From Epinephelus fuscoguttatus (Eukaryota > Chordata > Actinopteri > Perciformes > Serranidae), in NCBI RefSeq assembly GCF_011397635.1, contig NC_064766.1:43009510-43073509 (forward strand): a stretch of DNA of 64,000 nucleotides, in the 5' to 3' direction. The notes below the pieces were generated by a model that had not been told where the DNA came from, searched no databases, and saw nothing but the letters and a program-made list of their open reading frames with translations. Positions 9,341 to 53,000 of this stretch are shown in pieces; position 1 is the first letter of the stretch; the number at the start of each line of letters is the position of its first letter. The position numbers and the translations under genes are program-made.

Positions 9341-9344
9341 TTAA

Positions 9345-13332: not shown

Positions 13333-13401
13333 ATGGCGGAAATCAAAACGGGAATCTTCGCGAAAAACGTGCAGAAACGGTTGAACCGCGCGCAGGAGAA
13401 G
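13333..13401 (+). CDS. amph exon 1: start codon and BAR N-terminal helix
   Basis: This exon gives 23 codons from ATG to AAG, followed by donor GTAAGA in phase 0. It encodes the amphipathic helix that inserts into the membrane ([19 protein letters not shown]), near-identical to vertebrate amphiphysin and BIN1. The start is fixed by the conserved MA(D/E)IKTG opening. Confidence 0.97.
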
Positions 13402-13941: not shown

Positions 13942-14003
<62 letters not shown>

Positions 14004-17000
14004 GTTCATCTACAGTGTGTGTTTTTTTATTTTTGGTTTGAATTCGAGATGAAATGAAAACGTTACATCACCACTCATTTACATTTAATTAACAGATAAA
14101 TAAATAAATAAAATCAGTTTCTTGGTGTTCAACTCAGAGAAACAGTTTTCTGTTGAAAAGACGTTTAAAAAAACAATGATGGTGAAAAGACGCAGGTTAA
14201 GAAGTTTGAAGACGATGAATGTTCATATTTAGAAAATTTTTCACAAAGATTTGATACTGCGAGATTTTTCAGTGTGTGAATACAAGTTTATCATTTTGAA
14301 ATCACAGGTTAACCCCTTACCCCTGACCTCTCTAACCCTAACCCACGGGTCAGGACGTCCTTACATTTGATCCAGTTGAAGCTGAAACTGTTCAGTCCCC
14401 ATGGTTCTGGTTCTCGTATGATAATGAGAACTGTCCATGGTGCTGAAGACGCACTATGGACAGTTCACTTTCTGGTTCACTCTCTGTGTGTGAAGCTAAG
14501 CCCCGCCCTCCTGCACACAGACAGTGAATGAGAGCAGCTCCTTATATGGACAGACAGCTGACCAATGAGATCACAGCAAGCTGACATTTGAGAATAAGCC
14601 CACCCAGCAAGAAGAAAAAATGTGTGCTGCGTTCAGGGACACGTTGATCTGAAATACAACCCAGACACTGCACATTATATAGCTGCTTCACAGCTCGCTG
14701 TTTAAAGGAAGGTCTGTCTGTCTGTCTGCTTGTTTCCTGTCTCTTAAACACACACTGATGTTCTTCATGCTGAAAACAAACTTCACCAAAACTGTATTTA
14801 CTTCCTGTTTGTTGGGTCATTATGTTCAGTTAACAACATGACATCACTGATGTTTAGGGATGCGCCGAAATGAAAGTTTGTGGCTGAAGCCGAAACCGAA
14901 TATTATTAAACACTTGGCCGAATACTGAGTACCGAATACTGAACATCATTGTTTAGTTTTTCATTAGTTTTTGCAGATGAAAAGATAAGATAAGATAAGA
15001 TACACCTTTATTGATCCCATAATTGAGAAATTCCAGATTAGTGTTGTCACGGTATCAAAAGTGGGACCCACTGTGCGATACCAATGAAAATATCATGGTT
15101 CTGAGTAGTATCAGGATACCACAGCGAAAATGAGGCAGATGTGCCTTTTGTCATTTATTTAAGCAATATCACACGAGAGGGAGTGATGTTGTACTGTGAT
15201 ATCGTCACGGCTGTGATTCGGTCGTAGGCACTCGGCCTGCGGCCTCGTGCCAAAGACAATTACAGCCGTGCTTTTATACAACAGTTCAACAATTAAATAA
15301 GCAAGGCTGATTAAGAAATGTTAAAAAATGAGGACAAAATAGATAATTTAAGCATTTTATTTGTCTTCCGCCAACAAAAATAGTTCCCTCAGGACTCCGC
15401 TGTCACCGTTGCTATGTAACGCAGACATGGTGCGCCAGGCACTTACTCTTTATACACATTTATCTGCACGTTTCCATATATTGTGCAGCCGGTGAAATAA
15501 GTCTGTGGTGACTGCATGGTGGACTGTGGCTTCACAGGCACAGCCGACTCTGCCTTCTGATCTGACAGTATGTTGGTTTTCTCCAAGTCATTGAGCTCCG
15601 CTGATGAAACACTGACAAACCTGGATGTGTGCTCAGATGGATTCAGCTTCTCCTCTCCCTCATCTTCCTCTGATGACCATTCATAGTTCAATTCAAAACT
15701 TATTTTAGGAAATAAATCCATATTTTTGGCTGTTTGACAGTGGATGAATGAATTAGCCTACAACGCAACTGCTGACCTAACTGACACTAACCGTCAGTTT
15801 TGATTTGATTGTTGATTGCAATCAGCTGTGAGGCGGAGTGATACATACACAGTGAAATATCCGTGACGCTGTACTCCAATATCATCACGGTTTTACTGTC
15901 TCTCGACCAATCAGATTGCAGGGCCGGAACTAACTGTTGTATAAAAAAAGATAAATCACTTTTCTATAATACATCAATGATATTTCAATGGAATAAATTA
16001 CTTATTGATTTATTCATACTTCAAAAACAGCATCAATAAGTGATTAACATAGGAGGGTTCAAAATAAAATAAATAAATAAAATAAGAATCAACCAGCCAT
16101 CCTCCTCCCCTGACAAGTAAAGTACAGTTCCTAAAGTGCGGTGAGGTTTGTGGACCGTGAACGGCTCGTTTCTCCGCTGATACATCACATGCCTGTGTTC
16201 GGCTGGCTCGGCTGTTCAGGTACTTCTGGCCAGTCATGATGCCAAGAAGAGGATATTATTGGAGCCGACTTATCCGTCGCCGGTAAGCCGATGGCCGCCG
16301 TATTTGACAGGAATACATTACCGTTACTGTCTGTGTCTCTGACCCCCGTTCAACCCACAATCGGTGGGATTCGCCTTTCGTTTCTGCTGCTGGTTGAAAT
16401 CTGTAGGCTGCTCGCACAGCGTGCTGAATGATTTTTGCCTATTTTGCTCGCTCAAAACTAGTTTTAGTCACAAATGCGAGTGCCGTGACGGACAGATCGC
16501 CACACTGCCGACATTTTATTCCGCCCGTCACGGCACGCCGTTTGATTGCGTTATCAAAATACACCGCTATTATTCGGCCTTGCTTTTAACTTATTCCACC
16601 GAATACCGAATGTGTGTTTTTTTTGCAATATTCGGCCGAATATATTCGGTTACCGAATATTCGGTGCATCCCTACTGATGTTTTCTGTTGGTTTTTATTT
16701 TTACACCTCAACAAAAACATGTTTATTATTTTGTGCTCAGTCACATTTTTCTTCTGACGACACATTTTCTGTTGAATGAAAGTGATGGCAGACATGAATC
16801 TGTTTCATCCTGTGTTTGGTCAGGTGCTGCAGAAACTGGGAAAAGCTGACGAGACCAAAGATGAGCAGTTTGAGCAAGTGGTCATCAATTTCAGGAGACA
16901 GGAGGTAAGCGATGTTTACAGACCAGCATCACCAAATCATTAGGTTGTTTTGATGTAAACAAGATTCATGGACCTGAGCACAGAATAACTTTGTGTAAGT

Positions 17001-20000
17001 TCATGACTCAAACTGACGCACACAGACACGCTGGACTGTCTGCTGGGAACATGAATGCACTTTGTCACCATAATGAATCTCACACCGTTAAAGACAAGAT
17101 GACCTCATGTACACGTGAGAGCGCCCGCTGTCGCAGGTTGGTCCTTATGTATAAACGTACCTGCTGACTGTGACGAACGATGGCTGGAGAAAAGACAAAA
17201 AGAGGAACAATCAGGGCAGAACTTGATTTTGAAAATAAAGTGGAGGTTCAGTTTGTAAGTAGGAAGATGGATGTAGGAGGGGCCAAAAACATTAATGGTC
17301 AGAACCAGTTAAAAGTGTGATTGTCCTTTAAGTCAAACCTTTCTCAATGACCTGAAGAGTTTCTACTGTAGATCGAACTCTACATGATGTTGGACAGGAA
17401 GTGATGAAAGACTTTATTTCTTATCAGTGAGGAAGCTTAATAAGAACAATGAAGCCTGTCTTCTTAAAGACTTGGGGTCCTGGGGTCAGGGCCAGGGTCA
17501 GGGTCAGGGCTGACCCCTGAAAGGAGTTATTGTGTGGTTGTTTCAGTCTCTGATGGACAGACATGCCGAACATTAACCTCCATATTGTGTTAAACTACAG
17601 AAGAAGTTCTGGACAGACATTGAATAACATTGTGACCACGAAACCAGATTCCAGACCTAACCCCGCATGCGGCAGATGACCAACCTGATTGTCAGAAAAC
17701 AGAAAGGCATCACGATCCGCCAAAATAAAAGCACTGATGTAGAATATTTCCGTGTGTGTTGTGTCAGTCTGAAGGCTCTCGGCTGCAGAGGGAGATGAAG
17801 GCCTACATGTCCGCCATTAAAGGTGAGAAAAACTTTATTGTTAAGTCTCACAGAGACAAAATGATTTAGAAAACTCTGTCCGTCAGCTGACTGAGTTTTT
17901 GTCCCTGCAGGGATGCAGCAGGCCTCCATCAACCTGACTCAGTCTCTGCATGAAGTCTACGAACCGGACTGGCACGGAAAAGATGACGTCATGGTCATTG
18001 GGAAGGTCAGAGTCACAGAATCACCCACATAACACCTGAACACATCACAGACAGATGAAGGTGTCTTCACAAACAGCCAAACTGAAACTTAAATCTTTGA
18101 GACGTTTGTGTTGTGGTGCCAAGAGTCGCCACGTCAGTGTTACCACAAACACTTGTAATGATCAGGTGATTAATGATAGCTGTTATCACATGATGTCATG
18201 TTTGTAACTGGTGACATCACAGTGAGGAGAAACAGAATCATGCCCTGTCTGAGAATCACCGCCTTGTTGTGGTTGAGGGGTTTGAGCTTCCCTGCGACAC
18301 TGGAGGCAACAGCTCCTCCAACAGGGTCTCCCAAGGCCACTTGGTCCCAGGTGAGGGGCCAGACCAAGAGCTACTGTCCGACCCTGAACATGGAGGTGGA
18401 GACTCCTCCTGGAGCCAGACCAGAGGGCGGAGCTTGCTAGCTTATCACCGTGGTTTAAATCAGCCCACCCCACAGGACACCAGGTGCCCCCCCAGACCAT
18501 TTTCTAATTCACAGAGAAAATGTGTTCATTCATGCAGAGATTTTTTTTTGCACTTTTCATATAATTAGCTTTTTCACCGCCCTGACAACTGTCTTGAAAA
18601 CCATTCTGACAGCCGCCCTTACATCTCAGTTGCTCTTCCTGAAGTTTCTACCGTTTTTTCCCCGTTAAAGGGTTTTTTGGGGAGTTTTTCCTGATCAGCT
18701 GTGAGGGTCATAAGGACAGAGGGATGTCGTATGCTGTAAAGCCCTGTGAGGCAAATTGTGATTTGTGATATTGGGCTTTATAAATAAAACTGATTGATTG
18801 ACAACTGTTCTGACAACTGTCCTGACATCAGCCCTGACAACTGTCCTGACAACCACCCTGACATCAGCCCTGACAACTGTCCTGACATCAGCCCTGACAA
18901 CTGTCCTGACAACCACCCTGACATCAGCCCTGACAACTGTCCTGACATCAGCCCTGACAACTGTCCTGACAACCACCCTGACAACAGCCCTGACAACAGC
19001 CCTGACAACTGTCCTGACAACCACCCTGACAACTGTCCTGACATCAGCCCTGACAACTGTCCTGACATCAGCCCTGACAACTGTCCTGACAACCACCCTG
19101 ACATCAGCCCTGACAACTGTCCTGACATCAGCCCTGACAACTGTCCTGACAACCACCCTGACATCAGCCCTGACAACTGTCCTGACAACCACCCTGACAT
19201 CAGCCCTGACAACTGTCCTGACAACCACCCTGACATCAGCCCTGACAACTGTCCTGACATCAGCCCTGACAACTGTCCTGACATCAGCCCTGACAACTGT
19301 CCTGACAACCACCCTGACATCAGCCCTGACAACTGTCCTGACAACCACCCTGACATCAGCCCTGACAACTGTCCTGACAACAGCCCTGACAACTGTCCTG
19401 ACAACAGCCTGACAACTGTCCTGACATCAGCCCTGACAACTGTCCTGACATCAGCCCTGACAACTGTCCTGACAACCACCCTGACATCAGCCCTGACAAC
19501 TGTCCTGACATCAGCCTGACAACTGTCCTGACAACCACCCTGACATCAGCCCTGACAACTGTCCTGACATCAGCCCTGACAACTGTCCTGACAACAGCCC
19601 TGACAACTGACCTGACAACCACCCTGACATCAGCCCTGACAACTGTCCTGACAACCACCCTGACATCAGCCCTGACAACTGTCCTGACATCAGCCCTGAC
19701 AACTGTCCTGACAACAGCCCTGACAACTGTCCTGACAACCACCCTGACAACAGCCCTGACAACTGTCCTGACAACCACCCTGACAACATCCCTGATAACC
19801 GTTCTGACAACCGACCTGACAACCGTCCTTACAACAGCCCTGACAACTGTCCTGACATCAGCCCTGACAACTGCCCTGACATCAGCCCTGACAACTGTCC
19901 TGACATCAGCCCTGACAACTGTCCTGACATCAGCCCTGACAACTGTCCTGACAACCACCCTGACATCAGCCCTGACAACTGTCCTGACAACAGCCCTGAC

Positions 20001-23000
20001 AACTGTCCTGACAACAGCCTGACAACTGTCCTGACATCAGCCCTGACAACTGTCCTGACAACAGCCCTGACAACTGTCCTGACAACCACCCTGACAACAG
20101 CCCTGACAACTGTCCTGACAACAGCCCTGACAACTGTCCTGACAACCACCCTGACAACAGCCCTGACAACTGTCCTGACAACCACCCTGACAACATCCCT
20201 GATAACCGTTCTGACAACCGACCTGACAACCGTCCTTACAACAGCCCTGACAACTGACCTGACAACTGTCCTGACAACCGTCTTTACCACAGCCCTGACA
20301 ACTGACCTGACAACTGTCCTGACAACCGTCTTTACCACAGCCCTGACAACTGCCCTGACAACCACCCTGACAACCGTCTTTACCACAGTCCTGACAACTG
20401 ACCTGACAACCGTCTTTACCACAGCCCTGACAACTGTCCTGACAACCGTCTTTACCACAGCCCTGACAACTGACCTGATAACTGTCCTGACAACCGTTTT
20501 TACCACAGCCCTGGCAACTGACCTGACAACTGTCCTGACAACCGCCCTGACAACCGTCCTTACAACAGCCCTGACAACCGAACTGACAGCTGTCCTGACA
20601 ACCACCCTGACAACCATTCTGACAACTGTCCAGACAACTGCCCTGACAACTGTTCTGACAACTGTCCTGACAACTATTCTGACAACTGTTCTGACAATCA
20701 TCCTTTCAACTGCCCTTACAACCATCTTTACCACCGCCCTGACAACTTCCCTGACAACCGTCCTTACAACCACCCTTTCAACGGTCTTAACGATCACCCT
20801 GACAACCGCCCCGACAATTGTCCTGACAACCATCCTGACAACCGCCCTGACAACCACCCTGACAACTGTCCTAGCAACTACCCAGAAGAGCATTCCCCCG
20901 ATGTGTTCATGGTGGCAGCAGCTGCTTCATACCCCCACTTGCCGTGTCTGACACTGCTTCGTGTCTGCTGCTTCCTTCTCTCTGAAATGACCGCAGGTTG
21001 CCCGTTCATGCTCAGTGCTATAAAAAGCAGCGTAAAGTGTCCAAGTGCATAAAAAACTCATCAAAATAAAACTTGTTTTTTAAAAAAAAAACTGCCAGGG
21101 GTGGATCTTTCAGATCCCCTGACAGTCGTCCAGGCTTACCCTGCCTACATGTGTGGGGCCACCGACTGGCCTCTGACCTCCTGGCATCGGCCCCCTGCCA
21201 GTAAAAGTTGACTGTCTTTTTCATAACAGAATAAAGTTTTGATGTGTCACTATGACAACATAAGTTGATGTGTGTTTGCCACAGGACTGTGATGCATTGT
21301 GGGAGGACTTTCATAACAAGCTGGTGGACTCGACGCTGCTGGACCTTGACGCGTACCTGCAGCAGTTTCCAGACCTCAAAGTAACAAACCGTTTGTTATC
21401 TGGTGAAAGATTCTTTGACAGTGTTGATGCAGAAGCTGATTCTTCAACGTAAAACTGAAACTTCGTGACATTTCAGACTCGTGTGGCCAAAAGAAGTCGG
21501 AAACTCATCGACTACGACAGCGCTCGTCATCATGTGGAGACTCTGCAGATGTCAGGGATGAAGAACGACCGTAAGATAACAAAGGTGAGCTTGGTGATCT
21601 GTGATGAAACATGGGTTTCATACAGCAGCTGTTACCTGTGGTGTGTTCAGGTGCTGCTTGGAGGTCAGTTTGTTAATCAGACTTGTTTCTGTTTGAAGGC
21701 AGAGGAAGAGTTGAAAAAGGCTCAGAAAGTGTTTGATGAGTTGAACGTTGGTCTACAGGACGAACTGCCGACTCTGTGGGACAGGTAATTCGTGTCTTAA
21801 GCCCTAATTGGACGGGATTATTTTAACATGGAGACGTGGGGTAAAGTAATTATTACCAGAGATTTTAGTCCCGTCTGAGCAAGCCGTGTCTGTAATCATT
21901 ATGGATAATGTCAGTAAAAATTACAGTGACTTTTACCTTCTGTAAACGGTCGGGAGAAAACACCTGGCCCAATATTAATCCCGTGCTAACGCGATCCTCT
22001 GTAAAAATGTGTGTAAAAATTTCTTCACGTCCTGTTTACAACCATTTTGCTGCGTTTACAACTGGTTTTACGCGTTTTTTCGATGATGGAGGTGCTTGAA
22101 GAAGCATTCCGTGTTGTCGGCAGTCATGATAGTGGACATTTTTCTAATGATGGCATAGCCCTACGTGGGAGACCCATCATAAAGGATGAGAAGAAAGCAC
22201 TTTTCAGAGCCACGAGACTTCTGGTTGCGTCAGGTCGGCCTAATATAAATCCATATTGCTAATCGTTGTGTACACACAATCTTGATCATGGGCAATATTT
22301 CATATTGGGCTAATCATTAGAGTCTGGGCAGCTAAGCTGCCAGGGCACTACTGTAATCCTAGGTATTCTTCTTCTTCTTCTTCTTCTTCCGAGGAAATCA
22401 TACTTCCCATGGGTGAAAACTCACCAAACTTTGCACAAAGGTCCAGTCTCATGCCAGATATCCTCAGCTGTAAACTCAAGCCAGTAGTCCTGATGGTGGC
22501 GCTACAGCAAGCCTCTAAAGTTCAAAACTTTGAAAATTCATAACAAATCAACCATACGTGCTACAACTTCACAACTTTCATCAAACTGTAGCCCCAATAC
22601 TGAAGAAACGTGTGTACATTTAAACCTATTAAAATGAAAAAAAAGACAAAATTCTAGAGTCATGGTAGATGATGTGTGGCAAATTTCAGAATTTTATCTC
22701 AAAAACTGAATTTTTGACAGCATTTTGAATTTTGCTCTAATGTGAACAATTGGAGTCAATGTAAAAATGGCAATTTTAAACATCAGTTTTTCACTTATGA
22801 AGCAAATCAATCATTGTTACAAACAAATTACCAACATCTCCATGCTGTCTAGATGCAATATGTGTATTTTCAGATTTTTGTTTCGATAACTGAATTTTTT
22901 ACAGAACATGACAGACACATGAACTGTCTCTGACTAATTAGCTCAGTGAGATAGAAATTGATTCTTAGTCTCAGAGGTTGTGAGTTCAAGCCTCAGCTGA

Positions 23001-26000
23001 TGCAAAAGGCAGATTGTGTTGCTAAATGTCTTCCAATTCTTCTGCTTGTTGCTCAGAATTGCCTAAAAATGCCCGGACACGACCCATCGCTGCGCAGCAG
23101 CTATAATTAACTATTATTATCCTTCAGCTGATGCTTTATGCCCTGCTCCACCAACATCCTTCACCACAGCATAGCACACACATGTTGACAGGGAGATGAC
23201 GCCAGGACACAAACTGAGTAGAATTATTTTGTCCTGTGTGAAGCGGACATTTATATTACAGACATCCTGTGGTAAATTGACATTATTCCACATCCCTATG
23301 TAAAACTAATCCCATCCTAATAGTACTCTATGCACACCTGTCTGACACAGGAACTGTGTCTGTCGATCGTCACTTCATGTGCTGTAAAATATTTTGATCG
23401 ATCGATCAAGAAACATTTAAATTATCTGAAGTCTAACCTTTAACTCTTTGGTCTCTGCAGCCGTGTCGGCTTCTACATCACCACCTTTAAGAGTGTGACG
23501 CACCTGGAGACCAAATTCCACCGTGAGATTTCCCTGGTGAGGGGGGGGGGGGGTCCTTTGTCTTTACATCAGACACTAAAGGGTTCAGCTGTGTGACCAA
23601 TGGGATTGGAGCACTTTGTGACATATCACTTGTTACCTCCCTGCAGGTTTGTCGGCAGCTGTACGAAGTGATGACCAAACTGAGTGAGCAGCACTCTGAC
23701 AAAATGTTCACCATCCAAGGAGCGCCGAGGTCAGTTTCATTTTGTCCCTGAATACTATTTGATGAAAACAGCTGGCCGTTTGTTTGATTGTTTGAATGAT
23801 GAAAAAAAAAAAAAAACCGAGATGATCTCAGAGACATAAGTCTTTTTGTGTTTGTTTCCTGAGTCTCATCCGTCTTCTGTCCTCAAAGCTGATGTTTGTA
23901 TGAAACATGTACAGGCACCATCTGCTGAGTCCGAAAACATCACAGGAAGGTTTTCTGTGCAGCTCATGTTTGAATAAAAATGAGGTTTATTTCTGCAGGA
24001 TATTTAGAATAAAAATGATCTTAATTCAGCACCAAAATGAATGGATCATTAATCTACATTATGTCTTCAGATTTAAACAGCTGTGATTTCTTTCAACATC
24101 TAATTGATTGTCATTAAATAAATAATTCAGTACATTTATCTCTGGTTAAACACACACTGTGAGACAGACAGATTAGAGACACACTGTAAGACAGACAGGT
24201 TAGACACACACTGTAAGACCGACAGGTTAGAGACACACTGTAAGACAGACAGGTTAGACACACACTGTAAGACAGACAGGTTAGAGAGACACTGTAAGAC
24301 AGACAGATTAGAGACACACTGTAAGACAGACAGGTTAGACACACACTGTAAGACAGACAGGTTAGACACACACCGTGAGACCGACAGGTTAGAGACACAC
24401 TGTAAGACAGACAGGTTAGACACACACTGTAAGACAGACAGGTTAGAGACACACTGTAAGACAGACAGGTTAGACACACACTGTGAGACCGACAGGTTAG
24501 AGACACACTGTAAGACAGACAGGTTAGACACACACTGTAAGACAGACAGGTTAGAGACACACTGTAAGACAGACAGATTAGAGACACACTGTAAGACAGA
24601 CAGGTTGGACACACACTGTAAGACAGACAGGTTAGAGAGACACACTGTGAGACAGACAGATTAGAGACACACTGTAAGACAGACAGATTAGACACACACT
24701 GTAAGACAGACAGGTTAGAGACACACTGTAAGACAGACAGGTTAGACACACACTGTAAGACAGACAGGTTAGAGACACACTGTAAGACAGACAGGTTAGA
24801 CACACACTGTGAGACCGACAGGTTAGAGACACACTGTAAGACAGACAGGTTAGACACACACTGTAAGACAGACAGGTTAGAGAGACACTGTAAGACAGAC
24901 AGGTTAGAGAGACACACTGTGAGACAGACAGATTAGAGACACACTGTAAGACAGACAGATTCGACACACACTGTAAGACAGACAGGTTAGAGACACACTG
25001 TGAGACAGACAGATTTGCGACACACTATAAGACAGACAGGTTAGAGACACACTGTAAAACAGACAGATTTGAGACACTGTAAGACAGACAGGTTAGAGAG
25101 ACACACTGTGAGACAGACAGGTTAGAGACACTGTAAAACGGGTTAGAGACACATTGTAAGACAGACAGATTAGAGACACACTGTAAGACAGACAGGTTCA
25201 ACACACACTGTAAGACAGACAGGTTAGAGACACACTGTGAGACAGACAGGTTAGAGACACACTGTAAAACACAGATTTGCGACACACTGTAAGACAGACA
25301 GATTAGAGACACACTGTGAGACAGACAGGTTCGAGACAGACTGTGAGACAGGTTCAAGAGTCATTGTAAGGCAGACAGGTTAGAAATACTGTTAGACAGA
25401 AAGGTTAGAGTGACATTGTATGACAGACAGGTTAGAGAGACACACTGTGAGACAGATAGGTTAGAGACACACTGTGAGACAGACAGGTTAGAGACACAAT
25501 GTAAAACAGACAGGTTAGAGAGATGCTGTAAGACAGACAGGTTAGAGACACACTGTAAGACAGAGAGATTAGAGACACACTGTGAGACAGATAGGTTAGA
25601 GACACAATGTAAAACAGACAGGTTAGAGAGATGCTGTAAGACAGACAGGTTAGAGACACACTGTAAGACAGACAGGTTAGAGACACACTGTAAAACACAG
25701 ATTTGCGACACACTGTAAGACAGACAGGTTAGAGACACACTGTGAGACAGACAGGTTAGAGACACACTGTAAAACACAGATTTGCGACACACTGTAAGAC
25801 AGACAGATTAGAGACACACTGTGAGACAGACAGGTTAGAGACAGACTGTGAGACAGGTTCAAGAGTCATTGTAAGGCAGACAGGTTAGAAATACTGTTAC
25901 ACAGAAAGGTTAGAGTGACATTATATGACAGACAAGTTAGAGAGACACACTGTGAGACAGATAGGTTAGAGACACAATGTAAAACAGACAGGTTAGAGAG

Positions 26001-29000: not shown

Positions 29001-32000
29001 GTAAGACAGACAGATTTGCGACACACTGTAAGACAGACAGGTTAGAGACACATTGTAAAACAGACAGATTTGAGACACTGTAAAACGGGTTAGAGACACA
29101 TTGTAAGACAGACAGATTAGAGACACACTGTAAGACAGACAGGTTAGAGAGACACACTGTGAGACAGACAGGTTAGAGACACTGTAAAACAGGTTAGAGA
29201 CACACTGTAAGACAGACAGATTAGAGACACACTGTAAGACAGACAGGTTGGACACACACTGTAAGACAGACAGGTTAGAGACACACTGTGAGACAGACAG
29301 GTTAGAGACACACTGTAAAACAGACAGATTTGCGACACACTGTAAGACAGACAGGTTAGAGACACACTGTGAGACAGACAGATTAGAGACACACTAAAAC
29401 AGATTAGAGACACACTGTAAGACAGACAGGTTAGAGACACACTGTAAAACAGATTAGAGACACACTGTAAGACAGACAGGTTAGAGACACACTGTAAGAC
29501 AGACAGATTCGACACACACTGTAAGACAGACAGGTTAGAGACACACTGCGAGACAGTGTGTCTCACAGTGTGTGTAAGACAGACAGGTTAGAGACACACT
29601 GTAAGACAGATAGGTTAGAGACACACTGTAAAACAGACAGATTTGAGACACTGTAAGACAGACAGGTTAGAGAGACACACTGTGAGACAGACAGGTTAGA
29701 GACACTGTAAACGGGTTAGAGACACATTGTAAGACAGACAGATTAGAGACACACTGTAAGACAGACAGGTTCAACACACACTGTAAGACAGACAGGTTAG
29801 AGACACACTGTGAGACAGACAGGTTAGAGACTGTAAAACAGACAGATTTGCGACACACTGTAAGACAGACAGATTAGAGACACACTGTGAGACAGACAGG
29901 TTAGAGACAGACTGTGAGACAGGTTCAAGAGTCATTGTAAGGCAGGTTAGAAATACTCTTAGACAGAAAGGTTAGAGTGACATTGTATGACAGACAGGTT
30001 AGAGAGACACACTGTGAGACAGACAGGTTAGAGACACTGTAAAACAGGTTAGAGACACATTGTAAGACATACAGATTAGAGACACACTGTAAGACAGACA
30101 GGCTTGACACACACTGTAAGAGAGACAGGTTTGAAACACACTGTGAGACAGACAGGTTAGAGACACACTGTAAAACAGACAGATTTGCGACACACTGTAA
30201 GACAGACAGGTTAGAGAGACACACTGTGAGACAGACAGGTTAGAGACACTGTAAAACAGGTTAGAGACACATTGTAAGACAGATTAGAGACACACTGTAA
30301 GACAGACAGGTTGGACACACACTGTAAGACAGACAGGTTAGAGACACACTGTAAGTGTGTGTAGTGTATGTAGTTTGTGTCATTGGTGTTGTGTGTGTAG
30401 TTTGTGCAATTTGCATAGTGTGTTTGTGTAATTTGTGTAATGTGTGTAGTTTCTGTACTTTTTGTAATTTGCGCCGTGTGTGTAGTGTGTGTACTTTTTG
30501 TAGTGTGTGTTGTGTGTGTAGTTTGTGTAATTTGTGTATTGTGTGTAGTTTGTGTAGTGTGTGAAGTATTTGCAGTTTTTGTAATTTGTGAAGTGTGTTG
30601 TGTCGTGTGTTTAGTTTGTGTGTAGTCTGTCATTTGTGTATTATATGTAGTTTGACATTTGTGTAGTGTGTATACTGATACTGTAGTTTGTGTAGTTTAT
30701 GTAGTTTGTGTAATGTGTGTTGTGTGTGTGTGTGTGTAGGTTGTGTAATTTGTGTAGTTCCTGTAGTGTGTGTAGTTTGTGAAATTTGTATATTGTGTGT
30801 AGTTTGTGTAGTGTGTGAGGTATTTGTAGAATGTGTAATTTGTGTAGTGTGTAGTTTGTGTAATCTGTCTAGTGTGTGGAGTTTCTGTAATTTATGTTGT
30901 ATGAGTAGTTTCTGTTGTTTGGGTTGTGTGTAGTTTGTTTAGTGTCTGTAGGTTGTGTACTTGGTGTTGTTTGTGTCGTGTATTTTCTGTAATTTGTGTA
31001 GTTTGCGTAGTGTGTGAAGTTTGTGTTGTTTTTGTCATGTGTAGTTTGTGAAGTGTGTGTAGTTTGTGTAATTTGTGTATTGTATGTAGTTTTGTCATTT
31101 GTGTAGTGTGTGTACTGTATGTAATTTGTGTAGTTTCTGTAATTTATATAGTGTGTGGTGTGTACTTTCTGTAATTTGTGTAATTTGTGTAGTGTGTGTA
31201 GTTTGTGTAATTTGCATAGTTTGCGTAGTGTGTGCCGTATGTGTAGTTTGTTTTCTTTTTTGTAGTGTATAGTTTGCGTAATTTGTGCAGTGTGTGTGTG
31301 TGTATTTGGTGTAATGTGTAGTGTGTGTAGTTTGTGTAATTTGTGTAGTTTGTGTAATTTGTGTAGTTGGCGTAGTGTGTGTCGTATGTGTAATTTGCAT
31401 AGTGTGTGAAGTTTGTGTAACTTGTGTAGTTTGTTTTATTTGTGTAGTTTGTGTAATTTGTGTACTGCGTGTAGGGTGTGTGTAGTTTGTGCAGGGTGTG
31501 TAGTTTTGGGAGTGTGTGCAGTTTTGTAGTGTTTGTTGCGTGTGTAGTATGTCGGGCTTACACATCTTATATAATGAGTGTACAGATGCTGGGTTTCACT
31601 CAGGGACATTTCAAGGTCCCTGGAGGACGGTATGCCTGCACGTCACCTGGATGTCAGGTGGTCTCTGATTTAACTAAACAGAAATTAGTCACTGCTGTGA
31701 AACAATGTCCGGAGCATCTTTGTCTAGAAGACGATTACAGAGTCATTGGCTCAGCCTGCAGCTCCACCTGCAGCTCCACCTGTCACTGATCAGCCAATTA
31801 AAAGACTGTGTGATCATGTGGTTTCTGTCTCGTCCCTCAGTGATTCAGGACCACTGCGACTAGCCAGAACTCCGTCGCCACCAGAGGACGAGAGTCCACC
31901 TGACAGTCCAGACTTCAGATGATCTGAACTGGATCCTGACCTCAGTCACAGGTAGATGTTATCTGAACTGGATCCTGACCTCCGTCACAGGTAGATATTA

Positions 32001-38000: not shown

Positions 38001-41000
38001 ATGATACTAAGGTGACAGTAACGTGACACTAATGTGACACTAATGTGACTCTAATGTATCCAAAGTAAAATGAAAAATACTGGTGAGTAAATCCGTTAAA
38101 TCTATGTCACAATGTCAGGGTCAGGCTCAGGGTTGGGGTCAGGGTCATATGACACAGTTTAATGTCAACAGGAGGCGCTCAGCTTACTCACATTGACAGG
38201 CTGTTGATGTGAGTGTGTGTTACCTGACTGTTCTGTCTGAACTCTGACAGCTGCTGTTGCATCACTGTAACACGATCACAAATGAATTCATCTCATGTTG
38301 TCCTCATGTTCACGTGTTCGTCGGTCTCAGATCAGAATTTGTCAAAGTTTAGGAGGAGTTATTTCTGATCAAATCTAATGACGACGACACATTAACAGTG
38401 TCCTCCATTGTCAGAGTATTGTCCAGCCTCATAAGATCCAACACGCTGTTGTCTTTTCTGCCACCAGGGGTCCTTGCTGTGTTTACACAGAGTAGTGATG
38501 AGTGTTGTATTTCATGAGGCTGGAGCATGTTGCATCTCTGTTGTGGCGCCATCCGAATAATGCCAACAGACTGAGTCATTGTTTCTGTATCGTCTACATG
38601 TGGCTTCATCCATCCTCTGATTTTAAGATGAAGCTGGAAAATGGATCAGAAATAATAGAAGCTGCTTAAATGAAATCTGCTCTGAGTTGATCTGATAACA
38701 GCTTGTCTTGTTTTTTTTTTGGGGGGGGGGGCAGCTTAAAAAGGGGCCGCCGGTGCCTCCACCACCAAAGGTCACACCTACCAAAGAGGTGGCGGAGGAG
38801 CAGATCATTGACCTGTTTGGAGGAGAATTTTTACCGGCACCTTCACCATCACAGGTCGGTGGAGTCTTCACATATATTCTGTGTTCCTAAAAAAGAGATA
38901 GTTTACATGCACCATGTGTTGTATACAATTGCTTCTTGTTTTACTGACGTTGTTGTTGTTGTTGTCCACAGCCCAATGAACGGCCAGGAGAATCACTTCT
39001 TGACCTGGACTTTGATGCTTTTCAACCGGATGACAGTGTTTCGCCAATACCACAGGTTCGAGTTCTTTAAATTAACTGCTTTACAGCGTACAACGTCCCT
39101 CAGTCCCTGGACCCTCTGTCCCTGGACCCTCTGTCCCTGGACCCTCTGTCCGTGGATCCTCTGTCCTTGGACCCTGTGTTCTTGGACCCTCTGTTCATGG
39201 ACCCTGTGTCCTTGGACCCTCTGTCCCTGGAACCTGTGTCCGTGGATCCTCTGTCCTTGGACCCTGTGTTCTTGGACCCTCTGTTCATGGACCCTGTGTC
39301 CTTGGACCCTCTGTCCCTGGAACCTGTGTCCTTGGACTCTGTGTCCCTGGATCCTCGGTCCTTGGACACTTGTACCCTCTGTTCCTGGATTCTCTGTCCT
39401 TGGACCCTCTATCCCTGGACCCTCTGTCCTTGGACCCTCTGTCCCTGTCCCTCTGTCTTTGGACCCTTTGTCCCTGGACCCTGTGTCCCTGGACCCTGTG
39501 TTCTTGGGCTCTGTGTCCCTGGACCCTGTGTCCTTGGGCCCTCTATCCCTGGACCCTGTGAAACCTAAGGAAGAGACAGTGAGGACAGATCAGTTTTCAG
39601 GACAAACTATTCTGTGGCACGTAGAGTGTTGTGATAAATAATTTGCTTTAAATAATGTCGTGTTTCTAGTTTTTATCTAAACCATACAGGTGTTTAAAAA
39701 TGAAACGCCTGTGCTCAGGAAATCGTAAAGTTTGGGTGGGAGGAGAGCAATATGAATGAAGGTTTGGTAGTCGCACCAGCAAGAGCTTCAATTTACTTTC
39801 ACTGCTGAAAACACGAATAATGTTACCGTTGGTAAAATCAAACAAAATCCATGCTCTACTTTAGAACTGCGGTGGTTGTGTCAAAGCAGGCGACTAGTCA
39901 TTTAAAAGTAAAACCTCTGCTGTTAAAGTGTGAAATAAAGTTTCTGAACGTGAGTAGTTGCTACTTAAATATTTTTAATGTTGTCAGGCAAACACTGACT
40001 GACTTTACTTTTTCACTCTTTAACTTTGAATGTTGCTAACGGCAACATGATGTGCTTAAATTTCCTTAATTATGATAGTAATAGTAAATATAGCCGCAAG
40101 CGGCAATTCCAGAGTTCGAGCCAGCATGGAAATTTGAGATTTGAAAGCTGGGTAGAATTAGCACCTTTGATAGTTCAGGACACCTACCTCTAAGATTATC
40201 AACAGGTTTGATGACAATCAGACAGTTGCTCATGCATTTATGTCCAAATCTTTATTGGGCCACGCTCTTCTTTGGAAGCACTGTCACTTTGTATTGGTCA
40301 ACTGCAGAAACATTTTGGAGAAATGCATTAATGGCTTAATTAAAAAAACATACACCACAGGATTGAAACTTCAGGCTCATCTAAAGATAAGTGTCTAATA
40401 AGAAGTACTTCCTTTCGCCACTAGGTGGCGCTATGACTATCACAGTATTTTGTCATATAAATGTGTTCAGGGTGGGACTAAAATTAATCATGTGAAGTTT
40501 GGTGGACATCGGACCATTTACTCCAAAGTCATAGCAATTTCCTGTTTCATGGCGAGACATCAAAATTAAACCCTCTGCAGCGGGCATGGACACTAATGAT
40601 ATGTCATGTTTGTGAACATCAAATATAGACCACAGCACTGAAATTTTATGTTAATCCAAAGATAAGTGTCTGATAAGAAGCACTTCCTTTTGACTAAAGG
40701 TGGCATTATGACTATCACAAAATATTGTCATATAAATGTTTCCAGGGCGGGACTAATATGACTGATGTTAAGTTTGGTGGAGATTGGACCACTTACGCCA
40801 AAGTTATAGCAATTTCGTTTTTCATGGTGAGACCTCAAAATTCAACGTTCTGCAGTGGGCGCACCATTCAACACTGGGCAGATCCTCTAATAACTTTTGG
40901 TCACAAGGTGGTCAGGCTCATAAACCAAGTTTGGAGCCAATCTGATCAAATCTGTAGGACAAGTTCATTAAAACACAACATGTGTGAAATGCCAAAAATC

Positions 41001-44000: not shown

Positions 44001-47000
44001 AACTGGACTCATCTGACCACAAAATCTTCCAGTTTCTGGCTGTCCAGTTCTTGTGTGCCTGGGCCCAACGACGCCAGGCTAACCTCTGTCTCTCATTGAT
44101 CAGGGGCTTCTTGATAGCCTTGTAGGACCTTAAGCCATGATCTAAATGTGCGGGTGGAACACTGGACACCAGTTTGGTTTGACCACTGCTGCTGAAGCTC
44201 CTGTGATGTCATTCGGCGGTTTTGCCTGCACATGCGGATCAGGATGCGGTCATTTCTTGCTGAAGAAACCCTTGGACGCCCAGATCTTGGTTTGTCTTCC
44301 AAGCTGTTGGTTCGTCTGTATTTCTGCAGAGTGTATCCAAATGCTGAAGGACTGCATCTGCACTTCCTGGCTATCTGGCGGCAGCTGTACCCTTCCTGGC
44401 TGAGAATCTTTATCTTCAGGCGTGTTTCCTGCATTAGGTTCCTTGTTTTAGCCATTTTTGTGTCTGAAGAACTTTCAAATGTGCTGGCTTTATGTAGACA
44501 CGAAGCTTGGCAACAAAAATTGTGTCTTTTAATAAAAAGAACGACCTTCATCACTGGTACCAAAATGACCCAATACTCAAAATGTCTTATGTATTTTTAT
44601 GGAACCAATCAATTTTAAGTTTTTAATGGCTTTTTTAGGATTTATTTAGTATTTTGGCTGTGACTGTACTAAAAGAAATTGCACTTGAAGACCTAAGAGT
44701 GATTCTTAATGCAATATTTCACAAATGCATGGGGTGTCCGAAAACTTTTTTCCACCACTGTATAATGACCTTTTTGGTGGGTATAATAGAGTCTACACAA
44801 AAGGAGATATAAGATGATACAACATCCGAGACTTAATCAATATCGTCATTACAGGTGTCAAAAAAACAGTCCCAATCAGTACAATCCATACATGCTTGAA
44901 GAGATAAGACAGCATCCTCAGACCAGGTTTTGACTGTCTTTTCCGTGCACTCAAGGTGCCTGAAGCAAGGCTTGTAGGTGGGCATTAGGTAGACGCTGTT
45001 ATGATATGGTGCTCCCAGAGATGGCATAGGAAGCGACTTGTAAGCACCACCCACCAAGCCATAACACAAGTCCAGGATAGAGTTATTTTTAGTAGTTGTA
45101 CAAGTTGTTCATAGGTCTTAAGGGTCGAATCCAGGGAGCAGTGATCAAAATCCCCAAGTAAGAATTTAGGTACCTCTGTGCAGATTGAGTCAAACCTGTG
45201 GGTGACGTAAGCGATCAGCTGCGTTGCCGTAGTAACATTAGCTTTGGGGTGAATGTAAACAATAGTGAAGAAGAGTTGCTGAAATTCTTGAGGCAGGTAA
45301 TGCGGACGGAGAGAGACGGTCAACAGTTCAATGTCAGGCGTACAAAGTCTCTCTCGAACAACAATGGTATTATAGTACCTGCGATTAATGTAAAGACATA
45401 CACCTCCTCCATGACTCTTCCCTGTGATGTCAGGATCCTCGTCCCAGTCAGCGTCACTGAGCCATGTTTCAGTGAAAGCAAAAAGACAGGTTTCTCTGAT
45501 TTCCCTCTTATACTTGACCCAAAGCTTCCAACTCGTCTACTTTGTTCCTAATAGACTGTGCGTTGGCGAGCAATATTGTAGGCAGAGGGGGGAGCCTGCG
45601 CCGGTTGTCAAGGCTGAGACTTTTCAGTCTCATTATTCTTCAGTTCATCCCATCAGGGGTTTGTGTTGATGTTTATCGATTATTGATATTTATTGGTTAT
45701 TGATATTTATCGGATATTGATATATATTGGTTATTGATATGATGTTTATCTGTTTTCTGTACAAACCGTATTGACACCATGAGCTTCATGAACATGTGCT
45801 CTGCCTCTTTCAGACAGCTGTTCCTTGGGATATGTGGTCGGTGAGTAAAATCTGTCTATTGGTGTTCGATCAAAAACATTCACTAAATTTATGATCCAGT
45901 TTTTTTGGGGGGTAAAATTTATTTGGAGATAAAAGTATGAATGACGTAAAATCAATCAGTATATTAAAAGACAGTACACAGATCTCTGAACATATGAACC
46001 ATCTTCTGTCCATTTTTTTAGGCAAACACACAAACAGCTGAGCCTGTAAGTAAAACACAACATCTGTTCTTCATCATTATCATCATCATCATCATCATCA
46101 CTAAAACCTTATGAATCACTGATAGAACTTCAGTATATTTACAGAACCATCCACTTGATTCTTGTTTTCAGTTGGTTCTGTTGGCACAAAGATAATTTTA
46201 TTTACAGAAGTCACAGTTTACCTCGGAGGGGTTGTAACAAACAACATTTCTCCGTCATCTCACAGATCCTTTCTTCTGTTGACACCAGTGTATGTACACC
46301 AGGGGCGATTGCTCTGAGACAACAGGGGAGGCTGAACTTCCCACAAAATTTCATAGAAGAAATGGTCAAATATGCACTATTGAATTTACATTAAAATAAG
46401 AATTTACATTGCATTAAACGTGCGCTAGGATGCATTTCACATCGTGACTATGATGTTCAAACGTCAGCTGTTTGTCACCAGTTTTCAAACGCGACCTCCC
46501 TGTCATACATGCTCGTGTCAGCACGGTGGATGCGGAGCCTCCAAGCATTCCAATGAGACAGCGCTGAGCAGGTTTTTTTCATGCAGCAAAGAGAGATGCT
46601 CATTGGATAAAGGCTCAGCCTCCTTGGGACCTAATGGAGCGGTAGGCAGGAGAGGACGCTCGGTGTCTGCATAATGATTGGAGGAACTGTCTAAAAGGCT
46701 GAACCCCTTTGTGATTGACAGCGCTTTGGAAATACACACCGGCATTGGCGACCCCTGTCTTCTGACAGAGTGTTTCCATAAAACATATAGCTCATTTTCA
46801 CTGTTTGTACAGTTCAGGAGTTTAAACCCATCTGAAAATCTCTGAGGTGTGTGTTGCTGTGGTTCTATGTCATGAGTGTGGTTGAAAAATAGCTTGAATT
46901 AAATGTTCCTTTTATAAGTTACTGCCTTGCTAAAATATGACGCGTTATGATGTAAACCTAAAGTGAGCCTCCCCTGTTTGAAAGACCAGCAGCCGCCACT

Positions 47001-50000
47001 GATATACAGTATATCTGAAAATTGATATTAAACTTATTTGATGCAGGTGAATCTTGTCTCTTCAGAGATAACCGCTTAGTCTTAATTTACCCAGAATTCA
47101 CAGTGATGGTTCTACTGACAGCAGTCAGGAACATGTTTTTTAATAACAGTTATGATCAGTCTGTCTTTGTGCAACCAGTCCTTGGATTCTCACATCGTTC
47201 CTGTCTATTGTCTTTGTCTTTGGGTGGGGGCGGGGTCACAATTTAACCCTACAATCCCTGCTTTTCCCGAGCAGGCTGCAGATACTGGCTTCATCGCTGA
47301 CTGGTCCGCTGACTTTGGTTCATTGTCAGCAAACGGAGATGCTGCTTCAGGAGCTGAGGCCCCTGCTGTAGGGCTGGAGAGGGCACAGGGCGGGGCACAG
47401 GGTGGGGCTCAGGGCAGGCCCCAGGCAGATGACTGGCAGCCAGGTGCAGACACAGCTACTACACATCCTCAGGACAGTGAGCCAACCACAGCAGCTCAAG
47501 ATGAGGTTAGCAGCTGGAACTCTCAAAGTAACCCCGACCTTCATCCCTCTGCAGTCAGAGGAGATGAAGATGAGACAAGACATGCAGATTCCGTGGGAGA
47601 TACAGCAGGGCAGGAAGACCGCAGGAAGTCTACCCCAGGTCTTATATTCACCAATGAGTACGGTGAACAGATTGAGGACAGCACAGAGGACAGAGTAGAC
47701 AAGTGGTCCAGGTCTCCAGATGGGTCTGGGTCTGAATATGAGACTGCTGAGGAGTGGGGTGATGGAGGTCAGGGTGGAGGCTGGGCAAGTGCAGATGATG
47801 AATTTTCTTATGAAGATCGTTCACCAGTGAATGTCTCAGAGGGATGGGGATCTGAAAACAATGGTGTAGCAGCAGATTGGTCTCAGATGGTAGGAAACAT
47901 TTCCCCAGAGAGCAATGCAGCAGACAGAAAGTGTTCAGGTGAAGAAGAGCCAATAGGAAACCAAACTGATATCACATCAAGTTGCAGAAAATATTCTGAA
48001 AGTCGAGGGAAAGGACACAAAAGCGTTTTTAAATCTGAAACACAGGGAGGAGGTGTGTTTGATTCAGTGACCTCAGCTGAAACACAGGGAGGAGGTGCGT
48101 TTGATTTAGATCCTTTTGCTGAAACACAGGGAGGAGGTGCGTTTGATTCAGTTCCATCAGCTGAAACACAGGGAGGAGGTGCGTTTGATTCAGTGACCTC
48201 AGCTGAAACACAGGGAGGAGGTGCGTTTGATTCAGATCCTTTTGCTGAAACACAGGGAGGAGATGCATTTGATTCAGATCCTTTTGCTGAAACTCAGGGA
48301 GGAGGTGCGTTTGATTCAGTTCACTCAGCTGAAACACAGGGAGGAGGTGCGTTTGATTCAGATTCTTTTGCTGAAACACAGGGAGGAGGTGCGTTTCATT
48401 CAGTTCCCTCAGCTGAAACACAGGGAGGAGGTGCGTTTGATTCAGTGACCTCAGCTGAAACACAGGGAGGAGGTGCGTTTGATTCAGATCCTTTTGCTGA
48501 AACACAGGGAGGAGATGCATTTGATTCAGATCCTTTTGCTGAAACTCAGGGAGGAGGTGCGTTTGATTCAGTTCACTCAGCTGAAACACAGGGAGGAGGT
48601 GCGTTTGATTCAGATTCTTTTGCTGAAACACAGGGAGGAGGTGCGTTTCATTCAGTTCCCTCAGCTGAAACACAGGGAGGAGGTGCGTTTGAGTCAGATC
48701 CTTTTGCTGAAACACAAGGAGGAGGTGCGTTTGATTCAGATCCTTTTGCTGAAGCACAGGGAGGAGGTGCGTTTGAGTCAGATCTTTTTGCTGAAACACA
48801 GGGAGGAGGTGCGTTTGAGTCAGATCCTTTTGCTGAAACACAAGGAGGAGGTGCGTTTCATTCAGTTCCCTCAGCTGAAACACAGGGAGGAGGTGCGTTT
48901 GAGTCAGATCCTTTTGCTGAAACACAGGGAGGAGGTGCGTTTGAGTCAGATCCTTTTGCTGAAGCACAGGGAGGAGGTGCGTTTGAGTCAGATCCTTTTG
49001 CTGAAGCACAGGGAGGAGGTGCGTTTGAGTCAGATCTTTTTGCTGAAACACAGGGAGGAGGTGCATTTGAGTCAGATCCTTTTGCTGAAGCACAGGGAGG
49101 AGGTGCATTTGATTCAGATCCTTTTGCTGAAACACAGGGAGGAGGTGCGTTTGATTCAGATCCTTTTGCTGAAACACAGGGAGGAGACAAGGGGGGTGGT
49201 TTTGAATTTGATCCATTTACTGAGACCTCAGGAGAAGATAGAGTTGGGTCCGCTGTGAATGCGAGAGGTGGGTGGGACACAGACTTGTTTGCCAGCAGTT
49301 TTCCAGAGGCCTTTGCAGGGACTGAAGGTAGTCACAGCAGTGGCTTCGACTCTTCTGTCACCCAACAAAACTCGACGTCTGCTGCTGTGTCTGGAACGGC
49401 AGAAGCAATCAAAGATGTAAATGTTACCAGAATTCACAAAGAACCAGAAAATTCAGACATGTCCGAAGATGAAGCTGCAAACCGGAGATTTGGAAAGTTG
49501 TACCAAGAGCTAGATACAGAAAAGGAAGAGGTACTTGACATCCTGCAGTCCTCAGTGTGGTAGATTAGAGTAGACTTTCTGTTGTCTACCCTCCCACAGA
49601 TTGAGAAACAGTGAAAGTAGTTGTCCTGAAACCTGGATCCCAGCCTGAGCTCCTCCTCCTGCCTCCCGCTTGCATTGTCTGCTTGTTCATGCCATACTTT
49701 TATTTTCACATCAAATCAATCTTCACTACTCATGTAAGACTTGTTTTACCTGAATGCTTCAAATGCTAATTAATGTTTTTGCGATTTAATTTAGGTGACC
49801 AATACATTTAATGGATTCTCGCAGGTAATTTTTGAAACTACTTTGAAACAACTTTTTTTTTCTTTTTTTAGTGAAGTCAACTTTATTTTTATGGCTCTTT
49901 TTGTCGAGCCAAAACATTGAAATCTGTAGTTTGTCCTGATGACAGTGATCACAGCATGCATCACATTTTAATTCCAGACTGTTCAGAGCAACGTCAGTCC

Positions 50001-53000
50001 ACAAGAACTTTTGATTTTAGTTTGATGTAATTTTTGACTGTTGCTTTTAGCATTCAGCCTTCCAGCTGTAAGTTTCAGTGTTCCAGACAGTAGTTAACTT
50101 TCAATGACTAGTGTTTATTTTCTACCTAGCTTATCAGTTTTATCTTTCAATGGAACAGGGCCACTGTAGAGGTCACAGCAGAGGTCAAAGGTCACTTCGA
50201 TGGTCAAAGGTTACTGCAGAGTTTTGGTGCATTAGACACTGACCTCACTTACCCAATCAAATCCTCAGAAGCCTTGTTCTCAGTAACGTCCTCTAGCTTA
50301 ATGTTTTCTATGAATGCTTTATAATCATGTGTTTGCAGGTCCTGATTGTCAGTTGTGACTCTTCTTCTTTTCAATTTTTAATGCCTGCGCTTCGAAGGAT
50401 GCCACTGTCCCATCATTTTTTGCTGATTTTGATAAGATGGTGAGTTTTAAATGTCATCATGTGACTTTGAATGCTGTGTTAATGTCCTATATGTACTGTT
50501 ATTTGCTTAATTTGGATGATGGCAGATGTGAAACTTTTCTACTTATTGTTTGTTCTAAAGTGTTTTTTTAACCTCAAAAATATAATCTGAAAGGTTTTCT
50601 TCTAATTGTAACAGTAAGTATAGCATAACTGGTTTGGGACTCACATCATGGTGTTAGTTCAGAACAATGGATCCACCCCCCCACCCATCAGTATCCATTT
50701 CTTTGAACAGAGAGTAGTGCAAATATGAAAGATGGATCCAATCCTGTCCTGTAAGCAATTTTCATCTGCAGATAAATTCCTACACAATGTCTAACTTTAA
50801 CTAAATTAATCAGTGTTTCAGTACCAGATGCCTCTCAGGCAAACTGTTGTGCAGAATACCCAGATGATATCAGAATCCATGTAGGAAGGAAGTATTTTGC
50901 TGCTTGGAGAAATCAAGCTGTTAGTTTGAGACCCGAGCAGGCAGTCAGATGAGCATGAAGAAATCCAACACTTTGGCTGGTGTCTGTGGTTCAGATCACA
51001 GGCTGGCTTTTGCAGTCCAGTAATATAGGGGGTAGCAGTTCTGTTGGCATAGATGCATGTAGGTCATACTTCCACCAGGAGGAGGGCAGGTGGCTGTAGC
51101 AGATCCTGAACCGGCCTGACTCCCTGCTGGATCACCAAATGCTGTGTTGCTGCCATTACACAGATTAGACCCAGTGCTTGCTTCCTGCCGCCCAAATAGA
51201 GCCCATGTTCTGGAGCTGAGGCCAGTTTTAGTGTCTGTGTGTGTGCTCTTGTGTTTGGGGCAAGGTGAGAGCCCAAGAAAGAAATTAAATAAACAACTTT
51301 GGAAAAACCTATTTGATCAAATAGGTAACCTATAAAGTAAATGTCTAAAGTGTCAAATGCTGAAGTGTATTCTCAACATGACAGTTATCACATTACCTTC
51401 AAAGATTGTGGACATCAAGGAAGTGTCAGTGCTGGATCTTGAAAAGCTGACGTTACATAAATGTTTAAGAAGAAGGTGCAGTCGCATGAAAAGCTGCAAA
51501 AGTAATCAGAATCAGAATCAGAAATACTTTATTGATCCTCGAGGGGAAATTATTTATGTTACAAATATATATATATATATATATATAAGAGCAGGTTTAT
51601 TAAGTGTAATTTATCATGATATATGAAAGATGTGGAATATTGTAAAACTCGCCCCCCCAGTACTTTCCAGACCTGAACATATACCCCGTACTGAAATCTC
51701 ACGTTCTCAGATGTCTGTCTGCTCAACACCTCCTGTGTCAACCTATGGACTTTCATGGGCAGAACCTTCAGTGTAGTGGCCTCCACCCTCTGGCAGAAAT
51801 TTGTGGACATCTTCAAAAATGTCACCTGTTCACAATCATCTACAGACTCAGTTAATCCTGTGAAACACAACATCATTTATGTTTGTGTGTTATTTGTTCT
51901 GCCTACATGTATGGAAAGAGTCAGTGGGTTCATTTAGTAGCGACATAAAATGAAATCTATTATTACTAATACTATCTACTGTATGTTGTCTATAGTGTGA
52001 CTGACCTTACAGCATGTTGGCAACATGTTGCTAAATGTGTCCAGGCAGAACTCATGCTTATGAACTTAAGTCTTACATCAGAGACTGTATGATCACCATA
52101 CCATGACCACCAAACTGTGACCACTAAACAATGACCACCAAACAGTGACCCCCCCAGTCATGATCACCAAGCTGTGACCATCTAACCATGACCACCATAC
52201 CAATGTTTTGGCAGCTACACATGAAGTGTTACAGCCCTTGCTGGTACATGATACTGATAATTTTAGCATATTTACGTTTTGTTTTTATATAATTTATTAA
52301 TAAGCAATGTAGTCATGACATCAGCTCTGTTCTGCCTGTCATCATTTCTTTTCCATGTTGTGTATCTAACGGTGAGGAGGGACTGAACGCTGATGAAGTT
52401 TAAGATGAAGAACATGAGCAGATACGAGGGCAGGACTGGAATTAATGAGCGGTCAATTGAGATGTTCAGAATTCTTTAATTGAATTTGATTTAAAAGGTC
52501 ACAGTTGAACAGTTTTGTGTTTGATCGCCATCTTTTTTACAAAAGAACGAAGTGACTGCTGAAACAACTGAGGCTCCAGAAGCCTTGGACACAGAAGTTT
52601 CTGAAGAACAAGACAAACCTGCAGCTCCCTCTGCTGGTGAGGAACCCACAGCTTCCTCTGCTGGTGAGGAACCCACATCTTGCTCTGCTGGTGAGGAACC
52701 TACAGCTTCCGCTGCTGGTGAGGAACCTACAGCTTTCCCTGCTGGTGAGGAACCTACAGCTCCCTCTGCTGGAGACGAGGAGGAGGAGGAACCTAAAGCT
52801 GGTGACGAACCTCCAAGTTCTCCTGCTGGAAAACAGATCGAAGAACCTCCAGCTCTGTCGGTTGGTGATCAAGATACAGGAAGTTTTGTCAGCGTGACAG
52901 AGAAGAAATCTGATGTGAGTTAACAAATTAATCACAATATCTCACTTCATCAATGTGTGATCTTCTCTTCATCATCACCATCATCATCATCATCATCATC

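Follow-up and report, generated by a model that had tools for sequence, protein, structure and literature searches.

A predicted retinal insert exon with an amplified DPF repeat as a putative multivalent AP-2 docking arm of amphiphysin 1 in Epinephelus fuscoguttatus

Introduction

The locus described here raises the question what a long tandem array of DPF motifs might contribute to an amphiphysin, a protein of synaptic-vesicle recycling, and in which tissue it would do so. In the original prediction, made for the window (the whole stretch of 64,000 nucleotides of the Epinephelus fuscoguttatus genome that was analysed), about 15 DPF motifs were placed in a single large exon and proposed to turn a protein of low AP-2 valency into a multivalent AP-2 binder, with brain suggested as a tissue for the check. 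Two elements of this picture are already known, namely the retinal type of amphiphysin insert exon and the principle that multiple DPF motifs act by avidity. Among the matches listed in the open-licence literature, however, no report joins a DPF array with amphiphysin or with its retinal insert.

Results

Judged from its BAR domain and exon order, the gene on the forward strand of the window is amphiphysin 1 (amph). When the joined BAR exons were searched against PDB chains, human amphiphysin (4atm) was the top match to the N-BAR domain (397 bits, 2.6e-118), with lower matches to amphiphysin 3sog (321 bits), BIN1 (302 bits) and BIN2 (250 bits), and the Pfam BAR family was recognised at 3.3e-47; the original assignment to amphiphysin is thereby borne out. 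Pfam also detects a C-terminal SH3 domain, and this match, with the solved SH3 chains listed being all BIN1/amphiphysin 2 and none AMPH1, is evidence for an SH3 and not for the AMPH1 SH3 specifically. Both a clathrin box (LLDLDFD) and a W-box (PWDMW, of the form PWxxW), which are features of AMPH, are present in the model. The W-box stands alone on a 27-nt microexon (45814-45840) and could hence be included or skipped on its own.

Genome-wide, 15 BAR matches were obtained, eight of which are the amph of the window while seven fall on four other loci. As joined exon pieces, two of these loci score best as BIN1 (332 bits against 289 for amphiphysin on contig C13, 280 against 241 on C24) and two as BIN2 (157 against 133 on C1, 228 against 207 on C7), so that the window gene is the only amph found; a second copy was not detected by the BAR search in the 1.05-Gb genome (26 contigs, with the window at positions 43009510-43073509 of C15).

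The features of the gene are collected in Table 1. Workable boundaries exist for 18 of the 19 model exons, the exception being exon 10. This exon adjoins a 39-bp array (31922-33820), and the donor-like string CACAGGTAGATG is found in the units of that array; since the exon ends against it, an assembly fault is possible, and the missing donor may also reflect an unrecognised exon or real damage. The large exon, labelled exon 15 before, becomes the 14th coding exon in the present model, in which the end of exon 10 is uncertain. One could suppose that the gene or the exon is degenerating, in which case the frame of the array would be a relic and a full-length protein would not be produced, given that by eye exon 10 has no compatible GT donor before the TGA and that the counterparts of the human FEDNF and DPF motifs (see below) are absent. 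Against this stand the workable boundaries of all other exons, the intact BAR and SH3 domains, the position of exon 10 against an array where the assembly may be at fault, and the fact that this is the only amph found, with the other BAR loci best as BIN1 or BIN2. We therefore regard degeneration as highly improbable.

Table 1. Coordinates of the amph features in the window.
Feature	Position	Strand	Basis or remark
amph exons 1-9, N-BAR domain	13333..23729	+	splice sites, phases; Pfam BAR; human 4atm
exons 1-9 individually	13333-13401, 16824-16904, 17768-17822, 17911-18005, 21285-21380, 21477-21584, 21699-21784, 23461-23536, 23647-23729	+	
exon 10, 3' end uncertain	31841..31919	+	by eye, no compatible-phase GT donor ahead of in-frame TGA
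exon at the position of human FFEDNF, here LFGGEF	38735..38854	+	FxDxF absent
exon with clathrin box LLDLDFDAF	38972..39055	+	human LLDLDFDPF; DPF absent here
27-nt microexon TAVPWDMWS, clathrin W-box (PWxxW)	45814..45840	+	splice sites, motif scan
100 nt upstream of insert exon, 12 PTB-type YCU/UCY	47175..47274	+	motif count
predicted retina-insert exon, 2256 nt, 752 codons, phase 0-0	47275..49530	+	AG acceptor, GTACTT donor
42-bp tandem array, 27.4 copies	48035..49186	+	Tandem Repeats Finder
two identical 252-bp six-unit blocks (units 4-9, 10-15)	48163..48666	+	252/252 bases equal
divergent seed copy, 14 residues, at the 3' edge of the array	49192..49233	+	0/1000 shuffles reach alignment score
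22-residue tail matching human neural-retina AMPH insert peptides	49450..49515	+	gapless alignment
intron start, 4 UAG (three within 13 nt), Musashi-type cluster	49531..49630	+	motif count
downstream acidic exon with second in-frame array	52546..52914	+	27-bp unit, 5.8 copies
SH3 domain exons (55213-55314, 55422-55526) and stop codon	55213..55526	+	splice sites; Pfam; PDB

Several of the amph introns are taken up by long arrays with short units (18799-20879, 24144-31552 and 34991-38057), and a 27-bp unit of the TTAGAGACACACTGTAAGACAGACA type recurs in two different introns (24144-30355 and 36961-37953). A second minisatellite is itself coding: at 52616-52772, 5.8 copies of a 27-bp unit encode, in frame, a 9-residue acidic repeat of the AGEEPTA type. 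Remnants of Tc1/mariner-like transposases at 11290-12441 (forward strand) and 43642-44596 (reverse strand) were named by eye from their translations, as were LINE-like reverse transcriptase/endonuclease fragments that lie inside amph on the reverse strand (41662-43206 and 44985-45536).

The large exon begins at 47275 after CCCGAGCAG, ends at 49530 before GTACTTGA, is in phase 0 at both ends and is free of stops across all 752 codons, which agrees with the claim that the array lies within one open exon flanked by splice sites. The phase symmetry is not special to this exon, because every exon that follows exon 10 in the model has a length divisible by three. The open frame of the array is likewise weak coding evidence, since its period is a multiple of three and a 33-bp array at 2-9345 (9.3 kb, 283.6 copies) also runs for hundreds of codons without a stop, and this on both strands. 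The unrepeated flanks of 759 and 345 nt are both open in the exon frame, as are 76 of 54,388 and 739 of 61,042 other windows of the respective length, counted on both strands with the long arrays, the insert exon and 52500-53600 masked and the other amph exons unmasked. By sequence search, each flank occupies a single place in the genome. Scans of the exon region and its flanks revealed no Pfam family, a search of viral contigs yielded no relatives, and a PDB search with the exon gave chance-level matches only (best E 0.21). From our point of view, the strongest coding evidence for the exon is its homology to peptides from human retina.

Terada 2002 and Hosoya 2004 reportedly deal with retinal amphiphysin variants. 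Titles cited in the literature refer to an amphiphysin I variant specific to retina (Ir) and to splice variants expressed there (PMC11536687, PMC6952364), and a proteogenomic study of human neural retina describes AMPH transcripts that carry, downstream of BAR, an insertion of 102, 406 or 415 residues, together with five novel peptides; that study found no domain in the insert and, in the portions covered, does not state that it is absent from brain (PMC11450717). Two overlapping human peptides from that source, which belong to the 406-aa insert, join as DQDINNSDLSEDEIANQRYGLLYQEIEA, which aligns without gaps to the 22-residue tail of the fish exon (49450-49515) with a score of 85, a value reached by none of 1000 shuffles (maximum 43) and to be compared with 28-30 in the other five frames. 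The other three human peptides have no match in the exon (three of four peptide queries unmatched), and the homology thus rests on 22 residues. Outside the array, the fish exon codes for about 360 residues, as compared with 406 in a human insert.

The splicing context points in the same direction. Photoreceptor exons are described as having UAG clusters downstream (Musashi), with a reported UAG spacing of 10-15 nt, and PTB clusters upstream (PMC4991804). At least three UAG shortly after the donor were taken as the mark of a Musashi-dependent exon. In the first 100 nt after the donor of the insert exon there are four UAG, compared with none or one at 15 other exons, a density reached by 2.7% of 24,990 background windows; within 300 nt the insert exon has five and two other exons reach four. 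The UAG spacing after the insert-exon donor, 5 nt, is tighter than the reported one. Upstream, 12 PTB-type YCU/UCY motifs are found within 100 nt, compared with 2-6 at the 15 other exons; exons 1, 10 and 19 were excluded from both comparisons. The tail homology and this UAG/PTB context lead us to predict retinal, perhaps photoreceptor, inclusion of the exon in E. fuscoguttatus. The tissue in which to check the original prediction would hence be retina and not brain. It could still be argued that the exon is constitutive or used in brain and makes neuronal amphiphysin a multivalent AP-2 hub, as first proposed, since it is open with splice sites on both sides and since amphiphysin 1 is a neuronal protein. 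Considering, however, that the homologous insert was detected in human neural retina and that the UAG/PTB context differs from that of the 15 other exons counted, we hold this to be very unlikely. Most likely, we are dealing with the retinal amphiphysin insert, enlarged by about 380 residues.

Within this predicted retinal exon, Tandem Repeats Finder delimits an array at 48035-49186 with a period of 42, 27.4 copies, 89% matches and 0% indels. In the exon frame it contains 28 unit starts of the form E[TA]QGG, all 27 spacings of which are exactly 14 residues, and hence 27 complete units, representing 16 distinct sequences. DPF is read in 14 of them, DSF in two, DLF in two and a V-x-S tripeptide (VTS, VPS or VHS) in nine, such that 13 of the 27 lack a DPF. 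Together with one further motif in the seed copy (FEFDPF, with its DPF at 49210-49218), the exon holds 15 DPF motifs, and the shortest linker between any of them is 11 residues. The previously announced figures, i.e., 28 in-frame units (28 starts in our count), about half of the units with DPF and about 15 motifs in one exon, were thus reproduced by counting. The statement that the array doubles the length of the protein stands only in part: the protein does more than double relative to the 624-aa model, but this is due to the whole exon (752 aa) and not to the array (about 380 aa).

The 3' flank of the array starts with a divergent copy of the unit, the alignment score of which was matched by none of 1000 flank shuffles, whereas the 5' flank yielded no unit copy (815 of 1000 shuffles reach its score). 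The array consequently seems to have grown from its 3' side. The complete identity of units 4-9 and 10-15 over 252 bases would reflect either recent segmental growth of the array or a duplication in the assembly. Elsewhere in the genome, no other good match to the unit was seen among 34 candidates scored; nine of the ten matches listed are the insert exon itself, and the tenth has an E value of 0.124 and an internal stop.

Outside the insert exon, the remaining 624-aa model (with the end of exon 10 assumed at 31919) retains LLDLD and PWDMW and contains no DPF, DPW, FxDxF or WxxFx[DE]. We take FFEDNF and LLDLDFDPF of human AMPH, the latter with a DPF after the clathrin box, to be the counterparts of the fish LFGGEF and LLDLDFDAF; FEDNF and the clathrin-box DPF thus read FGGEF and DAF in the fish, and our scan of the model found the FxDxF and DPF motifs for AP-2 absent from the constitutive middle region. 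As all recognised alpha-ear motifs are in the insert exon, the protein would have them only in the form that includes it. The array would accordingly not raise a low AP-2 valency, as had been thought, but would be the sole source of recognised alpha-ear motifs.

Whether the DPF motifs have been kept by selection can be approached through the differences among the units. When the unit types are joined in a minimum spanning tree, 25 changes are implied, nine synonymous and 16 nonsynonymous, and the synonymous share is in line with the 30% expected without selection (p=0.51). The three DPF codons take 12 of the 25 changes, compared with a share of nine in 42 positions (p=0.003), and are the most variable part of the unit; the invariant part lies nearer the unit start, where E, Q, GG and F never vary. 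In this test, which is small and ignores gene conversion, neither purifying selection nor preservation of the DPF motif is visible among the array units, and near-neutral expansion in a length-tolerant exon therefore becomes a serious rival explanation.

According to this explanation, the retinal insert is indeed translated, but its array is a minisatellite that expanded in a near-neutral manner within a disordered, length-tolerant region, with the DPF motifs carried along from the seed and their valency unselected. Apart from the neutral-like substitutions and the variable DPF codons, the nine V-x-S units, the identical 252-bp block, the many long arrays in the amph introns and the second coding array at 52616-52772 are all in its favour, and retina-specific repetitive exons such as RPGR ORF15 do exist (PMC10706286). 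It fits less well that a DPF is already found in the seed, that the 12 C-terminal units keep nine of the 14 unit DPF plus two DLF, that every unit is in frame and open, and that canonical AP-2 motifs are absent elsewhere in the protein. None of these points proves selection, and a neutral origin is compatible with AP-2 binding. We consider an unselected array a realistic alternative, if not a probable one.

Discussion

Taken together, we lean, with some reservation, towards the reading that a retinal insert exon with an amplified DPF seed forms a putative multivalent AP-2 docking arm of amphiphysin. A seed bearing one DPF at the 3' edge would have given rise, presumably through unequal exchange, to about 27 units of fourteen residues. 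Musashi, acting on the UAG repeats behind the donor, would bring about inclusion of the exon in photoreceptors and/or bipolar cells, and the 624-aa protein would thereby become one of about 1376 aa. The arm gained in this way would be long, probably disordered and rich in Gly, Ala, Ser, Asp and Glu, and its 15 DPF motifs are separated by 11 residues or more. Binding of a single motif to the AP-2 alpha appendage would be weak, and many motifs together would bind by avidity, so that the arm might link the BAR-coated membrane, dynamin (via SH3) and clathrin (via LLDLD and PWDMW) to AP-2 at the ribbon synapse.

For binding to the alpha appendage, values of about 100 uM for a single DPF peptide and of about 21 nM for a long region of Eps15 are reported (PMC4731787), and the DPF motifs of Eps15 are described as binding AP-2 alpha appendages by avidity (PMC4921775). 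The analogy to Eps15 drawn in the original prediction is thus a reasonable one. The multivalent binder itself is favoured by 15 DPF motifs in one exon, and spoken against by the 13 units without DPF and by the variability of the DPF codons. Binding to the muHD of FCHo/SGIP1 was considered as the main mode and rejected, as the sites described for it have linkers of 2-5 residues; linkers of at least 11 residues fit the single-DPF mode of the alpha ear and not the tight pairs or triads of the muHD.

One could speculate further that in this fish AP-2 docking has moved from the constitutive linker to a spliced retinal exon, such that splicing toggles between a clathrin/dynamin form without recognised alpha-ear motifs and a form that serves ribbon synapses as a highly multivalent hub for AP-2, the valency of which is set by a fast-evolving minisatellite. 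We regard this extended scenario as rather doubtful. The docking arm as such, if it held, would represent a natural case of tunable adaptor valency, residing in one array of one exon, at a synapse with continuous vesicle turnover, and array length could differ between species or alleles. An AP-2 docking arm would also offer a possible role for the retinal amphiphysin insert, for which the human study found no domain. Two reviews differ on whether amphiphysin takes part in bipolar-cell endocytosis: the retinal variant is tied to the fast mode by one, whereas the other states that a dominant-negative amphiphysin construct affected neither mode of endocytosis in these cells.

Among known systems, BIN1/amphiphysin 2 resembles the fish amph in its N-BAR and SH3 domains and also has clathrin motifs, but it is encoded at separate loci in E. 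fuscoguttatus (C24 and C13), where a search of three forward frames over 20 kb each found no DPF array. For amphiphysin Ir with the human neural-retina insert, the gene is the same, a large insert lies downstream of the BAR domain, its C-terminal segment is conserved and it is reported in retina. The differences are that the human inserts comprise 102, 406 and 415 aa compared with 752 aa in the fish (PMC11450717), and that no DPF array is described for the human or rat insert in the literature covered. In this comparison, we infer that the human retinal insert corresponds to the rat Ir insert. RPGR ORF15 offers a parallel in that a photoreceptor-specific isoform arises from a long, repetitive, low-complexity exon, although in a different gene and with glutamylated Glu-Gly repeats (PMC10706286). 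Lastly, Eps15/Eps15R likewise have 15 DPF motifs in an unstructured region and are described as binding AP-2 alpha appendages by avidity (PMC4731787, PMC4921775). Compared with these proteins, the fish amph shows a regular 14-residue periodicity and N-BAR membrane anchoring, has no tightly spaced DPF pairs and hence no predicted FCHo/SGIP1 muHD site, and Pfam scans of the insert-exon parts, BAR and SH3 revealed no EH domain. The likeness to Eps15 proposed here is one of mode of action, in that the arm may work as the Eps15 DPF region does.
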